A stretch of DNA of 57,348 nucleotides from assembly GCA_038746285.1 (NCBI GenBank), contig JBCDKT010000023.1, positions 1 through 57,348 of the forward strand, given 5' to 3'. A program made the translations under genes and the position numbers. This document shows positions 12,914-18,235 of the stretch, piece by piece. Origin of the DNA: Bacteroidota bacterium (GTDB lineage Bacteria; Bacteroidota; Rhodothermia; Rhodothermales; JANQRZ01). The notes beneath the pieces were generated by a model, which saw only the letters and a program-made list of their open reading frames with translations, did no database searches and had not been told where the DNA came from. Each line of letters begins with the position of its first letter. Position 1 is the stretch's first letter.

Positions 12914-14077
12914 ATGCGCCTTCTTACGCTCGCGCTCTTTGTTCTTCTCGCCCCCGCTGCCTCAGCCCAGGTCGTGACGAGCTTTCCGCTCGACGCGCCG
13001 ACCAGCATGGACGCCATCTCGACCGGGATCGACGGCACGCTCTACGCCGCCGCCGGCTTCCGGGGCTCCGCAGTCTACACCCTCAGCCGGACCGGCACCG
13101 TCACCGCGATTGCGGACGGACTAGACGGCCCCATCGAGGTCGCGCAGGCACCCGACGGCACGCTCTTCGCCACCAACTTCAACGCTGCCGAGGTCAGCCG
13201 CATCAGCGCGACCGGCGAGGTGGAACCCTATGCCTCGACGCGCCCAGGTCCGGCCGGCCTCCTGGCCGGACCCGATGGCACGCTCTACCTGACGGAGTAC
13301 GGACCACCCACGTCGCTCGGCGGCACGACGGTCGCGGAGATCGAGCCGGAGGGCTTCGCCAAGCCGTACGCTTCGGGCGGTACGCTGTCGAGCCCGGTCG
13401 GGATCGCCCGCAGCGAGGACGGCACCCTCTACGTGGCCAACATCTTCGACGGGCGGATCACCCGCGTCACGCCGGACGGCACGCAGTCGCTGTTCGCCTC
13501 GCTCCCCCCGACGAGTCCATTCACGATTGGCCACCTCGTCTGGGCAGGCGGACGGCTCTACGCTACCTATCTCGGGGCGAACCAGGTATGGGTGTTCGAG
13601 CCGGACGGCAGTGGGAGCGTCTACGCCGGCAGCGGGAGCGCAGGGCAGGACGACGGTCCAGCGAGCGAGGCCACGTTCGATCAGCCGAACGGCATCACGG
13701 CCTCCGTTACCGGCGACACGCTCTTCGTCTCCGAGTTGGGGGCCGGCCCCACCGACAGGATTCGGATGATTGTCCCGGCGACGACCGCGACGGAAGGCCC
13801 GGCTCCGCCTGCGCAGCGGCTCCAGCTTGCGCCGGGCTACCCCAACCCGTTCGCCAACGCCACCACGCTGCGCTTCACGCTCGGCGCGCCGGCCGAAGTC
13901 ACGCTGACGGTGTTCGACGTGCTCGGGCGCGAGGTGGACCGCGTGCCGGTCGGGCCGCGCCCGGCGGGGACTCACAGCGTCGCGTGGCGGCCGGACGGGC
14001 TCGCGGCAGGCGCGTACCTGCTCCGCCTCACGGCCGGCGGTGCCTACGCGACCCGCACCGTCGCCTACCGCCCCTGA
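12914..14077 (+). CDS. Secreted NHL/SMP-30-type beta-propeller protein with T9SS sorting domain (paralogue 1)
   Basis: A 387-residue exported protein. It has a signal peptide (MRLLTLALFVLLAPAASAQ), then a beta-propeller of repeated blades with the pattern DGTLYxAxxxxGxIxRxxxxG (for example DGTLYAAAGFRGSAVY, DGTLFATNFNAAEVSRI, DGTLYLTEYG, DGTLYVANIFDGRITRV). About the last 80 residues are a type A sorting domain (YPNPFANATTLRFTL, VFDVLGREV, GAYLLRLTAGG). The sorting domain should direct type IX secretion, so the mature protein is extracellular or cell-surface bound. Propellers of this kind bind ligands or act as lactonase-like enzymes; no catalytic set can be assigned. It is a tandem duplicate of the next gene, 29 bases apart, and lies downstream of the two-component system. 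Confidence 0.85.
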   Translation: MRLLTLALFVLLAPAASAQVVTSFPLDAPTSMDAISTGIDGTLYAAAGFRGSAVYTLSRTGTVTAIADGLDGPIEVAQAPDGTLFATNFNAAEVSRISATGEVEPYASTRPGPAGLLAGPDGTLYLTEYGPPTSLGGTTVAEIEPEGFAKPYASGGTLSSPVGIARSEDGTLYVANIFDGRITRVTPDGTQSLFASLPPTSPFTIGHLVWAGGRLYATYLGANQVWVFEPDGSGSVYAGSGSAGQDDGPASEATFDQPNGITASVTGDTLFVSELGAGPTDRIRMIVPATTATEGPAPPAQRLQLAPGYPNPFANATTLRFTLGAPAEVTLTVFDVLGREVDRVPVGPRPAGTHSVAWRPDGLAAGAYLLRLTAGGAYATRTVAYRP

Positions 14078-14106: not shown

Positions 14107-15303
14107 ATGCTGACCTCGATACTCCCCGCGCTCCTGCTCACGCTCGCCCTGCTCATCGTCCCGATGATGCCCGCTGCGGGGCAGACCGTGAGCAGCATCG
14201 TCTTCGACTCGTCGCAGTCGATGGACGGCCTCTACGTCGACCGCGACGGCACCCTCTTCGCCACGGGCGGCTTCGTCGGCACCGACATCTACCGCCTCAC
14301 GCTCGACGGCGACCTCTCGGTGTTCGCGACGGGGCTTGTCGGGCCGATCCACCTGACCCAGGCACCCAGCGGCACCTACTACGCGACGGAATTCAACGTG
14401 ACCTCGGCCACGCGGAGCTACGTCAGCGAGATCAGCCCCGATGGGACCGTGCGCCGGTTCGCCGACCTCAAGGCCGGCGCAAGCGACATCGTGGCCGACG
14501 CCGACGGCAATCTCTACGTGTCGCACTTCGGGTACATCCAGACCGCCAACGGGCGCAGCATCACCGAGGTCGCCGGCGGCTTCGTCGAAGACTTCTCCGA
14601 GAGTGGCCTCCTCAGCGCCCCCGTTGGGCTGGACTTCGACGACGAGGGCAACCTCTACGCGGCCAACATCTTCGACGGGCGGATCGTCAAGATGGCCCCG
14701 GACGGGACGCAGTCGCTCTTCGCCTCGCTCCCTCCGCTAGAGCCGTTTACGATTGGGCACCTCATTTGGGCGGGCGGGCGGCTCTACGCCACCTACCTCG
14801 GGGCGAGCCAGGTGTGGGTCTTCGAGCCGGACGGCACGGGCCGCGTGTACGCCGGCAGCGGCGAAACCGGTCAGCAGGACGGCCCCGCGAGCGAAGCCAC
14901 CTTCATCCAGCCTAACGGCATCGCGGCCTCCGTCACCGGCGACACGCTCTTCGTCAGCGAGTACGGCGCGCCGCGCGACCGGCTGCGCATGATTACGCCC
15001 GCTCCGGCGACGGACACGGAGGGCACCCGTCGCCTCCCGCAACCGCTTCGGATCGACGCGGCCTACCCCAACCCTTTCGGCACCGCTACGACGCTCAACT
15101 TCACGCTGGGGACTCCGGCTGAGGTCTCGCTGACGGTGTACGACGTGCTGGGCCGAGTCGTGGACCGCGTGGAGGCCGGGGCTCGGGCCGCCGGGTTCCA
15201 CGCGCTGGAGTGGCACCCGCCGTCGCTCTCGGGCGGGACCTATCTGCTCCGCCTGAGCGCCGGCCGCGCCCGGGCCAGCCGACCCATCGTCTATCGTCCC
15301 TGA
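14107..15303 (+). CDS. Secreted NHL/SMP-30-type beta-propeller protein with T9SS sorting domain (paralogue 2)
   Basis: A 398-residue paralogue of the preceding gene, with the same architecture: signal peptide (MLTSILPALLLTLALLIVPMMPAAGQ), propeller blades, and type A sorting domain (YPNPFGTATTLNFTL, VYDVLGRVV, GGTYLLRLSAGRA). Long stretches are shared with paralogue 1, such as NLYAANIFDGRIVKMAPDGTQ against TLYVANIFDGRITRVTPDGTQ and a common segment around FTIGHLxWAGGRLYATYLGA. The N-terminal halves have diverged most, with an extra insertion (NVTSATRSYVSE) here. This points to a tandem duplication followed by divergence of the first blades. Predicted destination is the cell surface or medium by type IX secretion. 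Ligand unknown. Confidence 0.85.
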   Translation: MLTSILPALLLTLALLIVPMMPAAGQTVSSIVFDSSQSMDGLYVDRDGTLFATGGFVGTDIYRLTLDGDLSVFATGLVGPIHLTQAPSGTYYATEFNVTSATRSYVSEISPDGTVRRFADLKAGASDIVADADGNLYVSHFGYIQTANGRSITEVAGGFVEDFSESGLLSAPVGLDFDDEGNLYAANIFDGRIVKMAPDGTQSLFASLPPLEPFTIGHLIWAGGRLYATYLGASQVWVFEPDGTGRVYAGSGETGQQDGPASEATFIQPNGIAASVTGDTLFVSEYGAPRDRLRMITPAPATDTEGTRRLPQPLRIDAAYPNPFGTATTLNFTLGTPAEVSLTVYDVLGRVVDRVEAGARAAGFHALEWHPPSLSGGTYLLRLSAGRARASRPIVYRP

Positions 15304-16137: not shown

Positions 16138-17175
16138 TCACATGTCCTCCCAGAACGCCTCGGGCATGTCCTGGGCGAGCGCGAGCGCGCCCTCGGCCCC
16201 GGCGAAGAGCGGGTCGTCCACGACGCGGACGCGGCAGGGGCCGTACTCCTTCAGCCCGTCCTCCACGGCCTCGGCGATGCCCTTGATCTGGCTCCCGCCG
16301 CCGGCGAGGAAGATGTTTTTCTTGACCACCTCCTGGAAGTCGGGCTCGTAGCGCGCGACGAGTTCGATGGCCGTCTCGACGATGGCCGGGATAATCGCCT
16401 CGCACGCCTCCCGCAGTTCCTTCGACACGTCCACGTCGGTGATCTTGCCGCCGACCGAGGCCGTCATGGCGAGCTTGCCGTTCTCCGAGCCGACGTAGCC
16501 GTGCTGCTCCTTGAAGTGCCGGACCGCGACGTCGGAGAACTTGGCCTCGGGGTGGCGCTCTTCGAGGAGCCCGTGGAGCTGGCGGTCCACGAAGTCGCCC
16601 GCCATCGTGAGCGTGCGCTGGTCCTCCTCGGTCGGCATCGTGCCGTGCATGACGCAGAAGTCGACCGTGCCCGCGCCGATGTCGATCACGAGGGCGTTCG
16701 TGAGCGCGTCGAGGCCGTAGGCGACGGCGAAAGGCTCGGAGACGACCATGAGCGCGTCGGCGTACGCCTTGACCGCGTCGCGGATGGCGAGCTTGTTGAC
16801 CTTGAGCGCCTCGGCCGGGACCCCGACCGCGGCGTGGATCGGCTGCCCGTCCTTCGGCTCGACCTGCTCGATGAGGTGGTGGATCAGCTCGCGCACGGCC
16901 TCCTCGTCGCGCTCGGTGCCGTCGCGGATGACGCCGTTTTCGAGCGGCCGCACGAGGTCGACCGACAGCCGGTTCTCGACCGCGTGCTCGCCGAACAGGA
17001 TCGCCTCGCCGAGCATCTTCCGGGCGACGAAGTCCTTCGGCCAGGCGACGTAGCTCTCGACCCAGGTGCGCTTGCCGTTCGAGGCGACGACCGCGCTGCG
17101 GGACGTGCCGAGGTCGATGCCGATGTGAAGTGGGGCGGTGGATTTCTTGGTGGGCTTAGCGGTCTTCTTCGCCAT
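16138..17175 (-). CDS. MamK-like bacterial actin
   Basis: A 345-residue filament-forming actin homologue. After a Lys-rich tail (MAKKTAKPTKKS) come the actin-fold motifs: phosphate-1 loop IGIDLGTSRSAVV (residues 18-30), connect/catalytic region VVSEPFAVAYG with Glu147, phosphate-2 loop VIDIGAGTVDFCVM with Asp165, and adenosine loop IFLAGGGSQIKGI (288-300). The sequence between motifs follows magnetosome MamK rather than MreB or ParM: YVAWPKDFVARKMLG, VGVPAEALKVNK, GTMPTEEDQRTLTMAGDFVD, LLEERHPEAKFSDVAVRHFKEQHGYVG, and the C-terminal MPEAFWEDM like MamK's LPPQYWRQL (comparison from memory). No other mam gene is present. Start ATG 17175 lies inside the last codons of the upstream amidase gene (20-base overlap), so the two are translationally coupled. 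It probably organises something at the cell envelope; the function is unknown. Confidence 0.88.
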   Translation of the reverse strand: MAKKTAKPTKKSTAPLHIGIDLGTSRSAVVASNGKRTWVESYVAWPKDFVARKMLGEAILFGEHAVENRLSVDLVRPLENGVIRDGTERDEEAVRELIHHLIEQVEPKDGQPIHAAVGVPAEALKVNKLAIRDAVKAYADALMVVSEPFAVAYGLDALTNALVIDIGAGTVDFCVMHGTMPTEEDQRTLTMAGDFVDRQLHGLLEERHPEAKFSDVAVRHFKEQHGYVGSENGKLAMTASVGGKITDVDVSKELREACEAIIPAIVETAIELVARYEPDFQEVVKKNIFLAGGGSQIKGIAEAVEDGLKEYGPCRVRVVDDPLFAGAEGALALAQDMPEAFWEDM

Positions 17176-18235
17176 CGTGGGGGGGGATCGGGGTAGGTGC
17201 GTTGAGGAGCGGCCGGGCTTGAAGGTACGCCGCAATGCCTTCTTCGAGCGAGCGGGCGAGGCGTTCGCGGTGGGCGTCGGTGTCGAGGCGCGCCTCCTCG
17301 TCGGGGTTGCTGATCGCGGCCATCTCGGCGAGGATTGCGGGCGCCTCCACGCCGAGGAGCACGACGAACGGCCCGGCCTTGACGCCCCAGTCGCTGGCCC
17401 CGGCGTTCGCCCGGCGGACGGTCTCGACGAGCGACGTCTGAACCGACTGCGCGAGGTTGCGCGATTCCTGGAACTTGACCGTGTTCCCAGCCCGCTGGAT
17501 CATCGTGTTGAACTCGGCCACCGAGTAGTCCGCCGCCGCGTTCTCGCCGTGGGCGAGGCGGAGCGTCGCGTCGTCGCCTCGGAGGCCAAAGTAGTAGGTC
17601 TCGAGCGGTGCGACGGACGCGTCGGGGATCGAGTTGACGTGGAGCGAGACGAAGAGGTCGGCACCGTTCTCGTTGGCGAAGGCCACGCGCTCGCCGAGCG
17701 GTACTTCGACGTCGGTCTCCCGCGTCATTAGAACACGGGCACCGTGGCGGCGGGCGAGGCGGTCGCGGAGCCGCAGCCCCACGTCGAGCGTGATGTCTTT
17801 CTCCAGCCCCCCCGCTACGCCGACGGCACCCGGGTCACGCCCCCCGTGCCCGGGGTCGATCACGATCGTGTTGACCTTGAGGTTGAACAGTTCGGCAATC
17901 GGCAACCGACCGGGATTCGGCACCGCGAGGCGGCCGGCCGGCTCGGCGACCGGCTTGAGGCGCGGCGAGCCGTCGAGGCGTACGGCCGTCTGGACGCGCG
18001 GGACCGGCGGCTCCAGCCGGAGGCCCTGCACCAAAAGTCCCGCCAGCAGCACCCCGACGAGCCCGACGAGCACCGCCGGGACGGTCCGCCATGCCGAACG
18101 CGGAGCCGGGTCCTGCCGGGCCGGACGGCGCACGCGCCGGGGCCGCGCGGTGGGCGTGGCCGTGTGCAGGTTGTCCTCGTAGACAGCCTGCAGGATGTCG
18201 CGCTTGTTGGACCGAGAGTCGGAGACGGAGGACAC
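17156..18235 (-). CDS. Membrane-anchored N-acetylmuramoyl-L-alanine amidase (Amidase_3)
   Basis: Peptidoglycan hydrolase that cuts the bond between MurNAc and L-Ala. The 359-residue product has a basic cytoplasmic N-terminus (residues 1-48), one membrane helix (about 49-71, WRTVPAVLVGLVGVLLAGLLV), a linker and a zinc amidase domain (122-342). Zinc ligands and catalytic Glu are in place: His130 in VIDPGHGG, Glu145 in GGLEKDITLDV, His199 in FVSLHVNS and Glu304 in ILAEMAAISNPDEE. Most family members are exported freely; here the enzyme is tethered with about 48 residues in the cytosol, which could contact the co-translated MamK-like actin encoded by the overlapping next gene. No SPOR or AMIN domain is visible. 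A division or envelope-remodelling role is likely. Confidence 0.93.
   Translation of the reverse strand: MSSVSDSRSNKRDILQAVYEDNLHTATPTARPRRVRRPARQDPAPRSAWRTVPAVLVGLVGVLLAGLLVQGLRLEPPVPRVQTAVRLDGSPRLKPVAEPAGRLAVPNPGRLPIAELFNLKVNTIVIDPGHGGRDPGAVGVAGGLEKDITLDVGLRLRDRLARRHGARVLMTRETDVEVPLGERVAFANENGADLFVSLHVNSIPDASVAPLETYYFGLRGDDATLRLAHGENAAADYSVAEFNTMIQRAGNTVKFQESRNLAQSVQTSLVETVRRANAGASDWGVKAGPFVVLLGVEAPAILAEMAAISNPDEEARLDTDAHRERLARSLEEGIAAYLQARPLLNAPTPIPPHDGEEDR

Follow-up and report, generated by a model that had tools for sequence, protein, structure and literature searches.

A MamK-family actin gene of the Rhodothermales is paired with the gene for a bitopic amidase that carries a conserved cytosolic motif

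The magnetosome actin MamK works by anchoring cargo and organizes magnetosomes, and in MreB-RodZ a bacterial actin is joined to the envelope via the cytosolic portion of RodZ, which is bitopic. The amidases AmiA, AmiB, and AmiC are exported enzymes that are controlled from the periplasm. A MamK-related actin is also present in non-magnetotactic bacteria: BeeR of Verrucomicrobiota, a protein whose function is not known, which carries a disordered N-terminal extension of 30-50 residues (PMC11929497). A cytosolic polymer and a wall hydrolase are brought together in BacA-LmdC of Hyphomonas neptunium and Rhodospirillum rubrum, where adjacent genes overlapping by 17 bp encode a bactofilin (BacA) and an M23 endopeptidase (LmdC); LmdC is bitopic, with a short N-terminal cytosolic tail and one membrane helix, and its tail has been shown to bind the BacA polymer (PMC10945521).

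The window analyzed here is the whole 57,348-nucleotide stretch of contig JBCDKT010000023.1 (assembly GCA_038746285.1, a Bacteroidota bacterium of the order Rhodothermales). On its minus strand, a gene for a bitopic N-acetylmuramoyl-L-alanine amidase (P0001; 17156..18235, GTG at 18235, stop at 17156, 359 aa) is followed by a gene for a MamK-family actin (P0002; 16138..17175, ATG at 17175, stop at 16138, 345 aa). The two genes overlap by 20 nt (17156..17175, minus strand), and the start of the actin therefore lies within the amidase gene, 20 bases inside it, where the original prediction had placed it. The locus resembles BacA-LmdC in that the gene for a polymer adjoins and overlaps that for a bitopic wall hydrolase (by 20 nt, as against 17 bp in BacA-LmdC); it differs in combining an ATPase-type actin with an Amidase_3 enzyme instead of a bactofilin with an M23 enzyme, and in that the binding, which has been shown for LmdC, is here something that we infer. 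As in MreB-RodZ, a bitopic protein would link an actin to the envelope through its cytosolic part; RodZ, however, is not a hydrolase, and the window's genome encodes a separate MreB. Inspection of the translations identified a nitroreductase-like gene in the opposite orientation 3' of the pair and rpsA and cmk 5' of it. Further along the window, at 12914-14077 and 14107-15303 on the plus strand, lie two paralogous genes in tandem, whose secreted products have NHL/propeller-like repeats and a C-terminal tail resembling a type IX sorting domain. A mobile-element origin of the pair was ruled out; there were no plasmid matches and no relatives on viral contigs.

The actin had been described as having the character of MamK and not of MreB, FtsA, or ParM, and each comparison that we made agrees with this. 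Against the NCBIfam MamK model NF040964, the protein scores 408 bits and passes the cut-off of 400, whereas it fails both the BeeR model (221 bits; equivalog cut-off, 530) and the MreB model (86 bits; subfamily cut-off, 293); the name that follows from the NCBI model alone is "MamK family actin-like protein." The nearest solved structure by sequence is Magnetospirillum MamK (5ljw, E 9e-82; also 5ljv). The AF2 model of the actin has a mean pLDDT of 89, and fold comparison with the MamK filament gave a VIA Z of 41.5 and an rmsd of 1.5 Å over 323 residues, with BeeR second (Z 38.1) and MreB behind it (Z 32.4). In an actin tree that contained one MamK sequence, the Rhodothermales proteins formed one group (support 81/95) that stood beside MamK (92/68), with BeeR outside; the group was placed outside the MreB clade with support of 100/100, and the phylogeny suggested as a check on the prediction thus does not have the actin branching inside MreB. 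We consider MreB, FtsA, and ParM to be ruled out as identities for this protein: their scores are far weaker or there are none, and the genome has an MreB of its own. BeeR is similar in being a MamK-related actin outside magnetotactic bacteria and is the second-best structure match, but the window actin falls far below the BeeR cut-off and, with about 15 residues ahead of its first strand, lacks the BeeR-type extension of 30-50 residues.

The proposed link to MamK stands at the level of the family and not at that of magnetosome MamK itself. MamK-family actins of the order straddle the NF040964 cut-off, scoring 371-423 bits with 18 of the 34 genomes above 400, compared with 540 bits for the genuine MamK of AMB-1, and they are 35-42% identical to magnetosome MamK, 31-37% to BeeR, and 24-29% to MreB. 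From these scores, the identities, and the tree, we class the protein as a MamK-family actin and not as a demonstrated magnetosome MamK. It shares with magnetosome MamK the NCBIfam subfamily, the fold, and the active-site Glu and Asp; it differs in lying outside a magnetosome cluster and in having an amidase as its partner. The two active-site residues, Glu147 and Asp165, had been predicted to be kept and indeed are: 5ljw aligns at an offset of 4, so that they correspond to chain residues 143 and 161, and both are invariant in 24 relatives. Residues specific to the actins of the order are concentrated around positions 122-150 and at the C terminus, and these stretches are possible candidates for a docking face.

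As predicted, there is no mam gene nearby, in that no magnetosome-type gene was detected among the nine other large ORFs of the window that were scanned, and the neighbors of the pair in relatives are housekeeping genes. A search for MamI in 10 MamK-positive genomes gave no match, in a search where the positive control did not score either. With the MamQ model, matches of 81-113 bits came from 9 of the 10 genomes (e.g., G000:C24:28518-29048), against a cut-off of 250, and the MamQ family also scores below the cut-off in E. coli and other unrelated control genomes. Because the scores are low and the controls also give sub-cut-off scores, these matches, which are probably LemA-type proteins, were not counted as magnetosome genes; it is likely that such genes are absent genome-wide.

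The partner gene had been read as that of a zinc amidase tethered by a single membrane helix with about 48 cytosolic residues, and both parts of this description are borne out. Amidase_3 is the sole Pfam domain matched (E 1e-45), an AMIN domain is absent, and the best Foldseek matches are E. coli AmiA and AmiC. The catalytic domain (17231..17866; this and the following amidase features are all on the minus strand) has the conserved residues H130/E145/H199/E304, of which the Zn ligands H130, E145, and H199 and the catalytic E304 are invariant in 22 relatives. The AF2 model shows a helix at residues 8-26 (18158..18214; pLDDT of ~78 for residues 11-20), predicted to be cytosolic, followed by a flexible stretch, a membrane helix at residues 48-71 (18023..18094), a disordered periplasmic linker of ~40 residues, and the catalytic domain from residue ~120 onward. 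The membrane helix, which coincides with a hydropathy peak at residues 51-69, leaves 47 residues on its N-terminal side; the predicted topology is N-in, and in 29 of 32 relatives the 15-residue stretch ahead of the helix has a higher net charge than the sequence that follows it, as expected for such a protein. An AmiABC-type insertion at residues ~222-252 (17480..17572) aligns with the matching insertion of E. coli AmiA, and we take it to be a possible autoinhibitory segment. The enzyme thus has the Amidase_3 domain and the insertion in common with AmiA, AmiB, and AmiC; unlike them, it is bitopic and has a cytosolic motif, and it is without the AMIN targeting domain of AmiB and AmiC.

We surveyed the order for the pair; families f3 to f8 and genomes with G or L numbers are working labels here and not taxonomic names. 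The MamK-family gene is present in 34 of 114 Rhodothermales genomes (26 of the 77 of high quality), belonging to 17 of 49 genera and to 7 families. None was found at E≤1e-50 in the rest of the 245 genomes of the class, and none at comparable scores outside the order in 296 genomes of the phylum. The 34 genomes hold 35 loci because one genome has two identical copies; these are the inverted copies of the pair in G353 (contig C91, 102544-103536 on the minus strand and 130035-131027 on the plus strand), which are either a real inverted duplication or an assembly artifact.

The survey of amidase linkage suggested in the original prediction gave a uniform answer: the amidase lies directly upstream of the actin, on the same strand, in 35 of 35 MamK-family loci of the order. 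Most relatives have a spacing of -29 to +74 nt between the two genes; in a small number of loci among the 35, the genes lie more than 100 nt apart or the start is unclear, so translational coupling is not universal. Apart from the amidase, no neighboring gene is common to all 35 loci. thyA, with or without folA, neighbors the pair in f4, f7, and f8, EF-G lies upstream in f5, and rpsA adjoins the pair only in the window and not even in the sister genomes L066 and L071. Since the flanks vary between families and the pair stays, chance adjacency and simple operon drift were ruled out.

Presence and absence of the two genes follow the same line. A profile built from the paired amidases separates the genomes exactly: the 34 MamK-positive ones score 377-474 bits and the other 80 at most 231 bits, where the value of 231 comes from a single genome (G215) and all others score 168 or less; the low-scoring matches that were inspected are exported amidases with an AMIN-like front part. 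It follows from this split that a genome has either both genes or neither, and the same switch is seen inside f4, f5, f7, and f8. Distances between amidases and between actins are correlated (Mantel r, 0.86). In a Pfam Amidase_3 search, each of nine MamK-positive genomes of f8 had one Amidase_3 gene, the paired one. No Amidase_3 gene was found in G301 (f8, 92% complete), and three f3 genomes (G131, G034, and G013) have distant Amidase_3 genes only.

The cytosolic tail of the amidase contains a motif, [RK]xx[ILMV]LxxV[YF]E[DE]Nx[RK][IL], that is present in 33 of 33 paired amidases with a sequenced N terminus (32 complete sequences and that of G313, read across two contigs). In the window its core is ILQAVYEDN, at residues 14-22 (18170..18196, minus strand), which we propose as a putative actin-docking peptide. 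Mean pairwise identity among the paired amidases is 61% in this core and 51% in the catalytic domain, compared with 18% in the two linkers, cytosolic and periplasmic, and the membrane helix between them. The Asn is invariant in 30 distinct sequences, and the best-conserved positions include polar ones (E, D/E, and Asn); a few sequences depart from the motif at a single position, such as A for Y in G135 and F for L in G367. In the amidase of Roseithermus sacchariphilus (L075), the motif occurs twice in the cytosolic tail, at residues 15-23 and again ~30 residues on. Exported amidases of the AMIN-like type were checked in 10 genomes and do not have the motif. At the DNA level, a search of the window's 4.07-Mb genome for the coding pattern L-x-x-[VI]-Y-E-[DE]-N, on both strands and in any frame, gave a single match, which is in the paired amidase. 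Beyond amidases, the pattern had three matches in 2 of 14 genomes, in unrelated places, and in three genomes with divergent motifs the strict pattern gave no match. A general export or membrane signal was ruled out as an explanation of the motif, which is missing from the other amidases checked.

One MamK-negative genome of f8, G215, retains an amidase at the corresponding place: the amidase is followed directly by folA, where its relatives read thyA-amidase-actin-folA. This amidase is without the motif, and its ORF starts right after a tRNA-Cys, leaving no room for one; the insertion in its catalytic domain is shorter than in the paired amidases. In this single genome, the enzyme domain is still there, and both the actin and the motif are missing. 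A short distance upstream of the actin-less amidase, at L101 5629-5835 in G215, an Rfam model of group I introns matches with 65.8 bits (gathering cut-off, 50), and this intron apparently lies inside a tRNA gene.

We think it probable that these genes form a two-gene module in which a MamK-family filament captures the amidase by its tail helix and fixes the site at which peptidoglycan is cut. The actin would polymerize in the cytosol as MamK does, the short helix in the cytosolic tail of the amidase would bind the filament, and the filament would thereby set where in the envelope the AmiC-type amidase cuts peptidoglycan, with local wall cleavage as the outcome. Enzyme activity, polymerization, and binding are suggested by conservation and by what is known of the two families. 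The place of action would most likely be the division site or daughter-cell separation, which we propose because the paired enzyme is the only Amidase_3 found in f8. On the more specific reading, that the actin docks the amidase by a dedicated helix and that the actin-amidase module, providing the only Amidase_3 in f8, runs daughter-cell separation, we are evenly divided. The joint positioning role put forward in the original prediction is thus better supported than before, by the motif, the strict co-occurrence, and the relative that lacks both actin and motif; as to the binding and the site of action, we infer them.

Three other accounts were weighed. The polarity could be reversed: the amidase, bound to the wall, would serve mainly to anchor the filament in the membrane at a substrate-rich site, and the filament would organize DNA, an organelle, or the divisome. 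MamK does anchor cargo, the motif, topology, and co-occurrence data also fit this account, and the doubled motif in Roseithermus is compatible with either polarity; against it, the Zn ligands and catalytic Glu are invariant and the paired enzyme is the sole Amidase_3 in f8, from which we conclude that catalysis is kept and probably needed, and we regard a mainly anchoring amidase as unlikely. It is somewhat less likely still that the filament gates the enzyme, its assembly pulling or clustering the tails so that the autoinhibitory insertion is relieved, an inside-out activation like that of AmiA and AmiB by FtsEX-EnvC. The AmiABC-type insertion is kept in the paired amidases and shortened in the actin-less amidase of G215, as this account would have it, but a disordered periplasmic linker of ~40 residues would transmit a pull poorly, and the module is without an activator gene. 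Least credible, and in our view very improbable, is co-regulation only, in which the overlap (which by itself gives coupling) serves to balance the expression of genes that act in one process, the proteins make no contact, and the motif is for a different partner or for targeting to the membrane, since the motif is missing both in G215, the sole relative with the amidase and without the actin, and from the other amidases checked, and its conserved polar positions are unlike those of a membrane-targeting helix. Pairing and co-loss also fit genes that merely share a process, and the motif could instead bind another conserved cytosolic protein.

The system had been thought not to have been described before, and in the open literature that we searched we found no report of the actin-amidase pair or of the docking motif; the component families are known, and it is the conserved module and its motif for which that literature holds no report. 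Filament capture of the amidase, the reading that we prefer, assigns to a non-magnetosome MamK-family actin a definite partner as well as a docking peptide and a job that can both be tested. Roseithermus sacchariphilus, which is in culture and whose genome is complete, carries the module. If true, this reading would be the first function suggested for non-magnetosome MamK-family filaments, and it would extend to an actin what bactofilin and LmdC exemplify, the direct placement of a wall hydrolase by a polymer in the cytosol. It also suggests that the control of amidases, usually periplasmic, can come from the cytosol as well.
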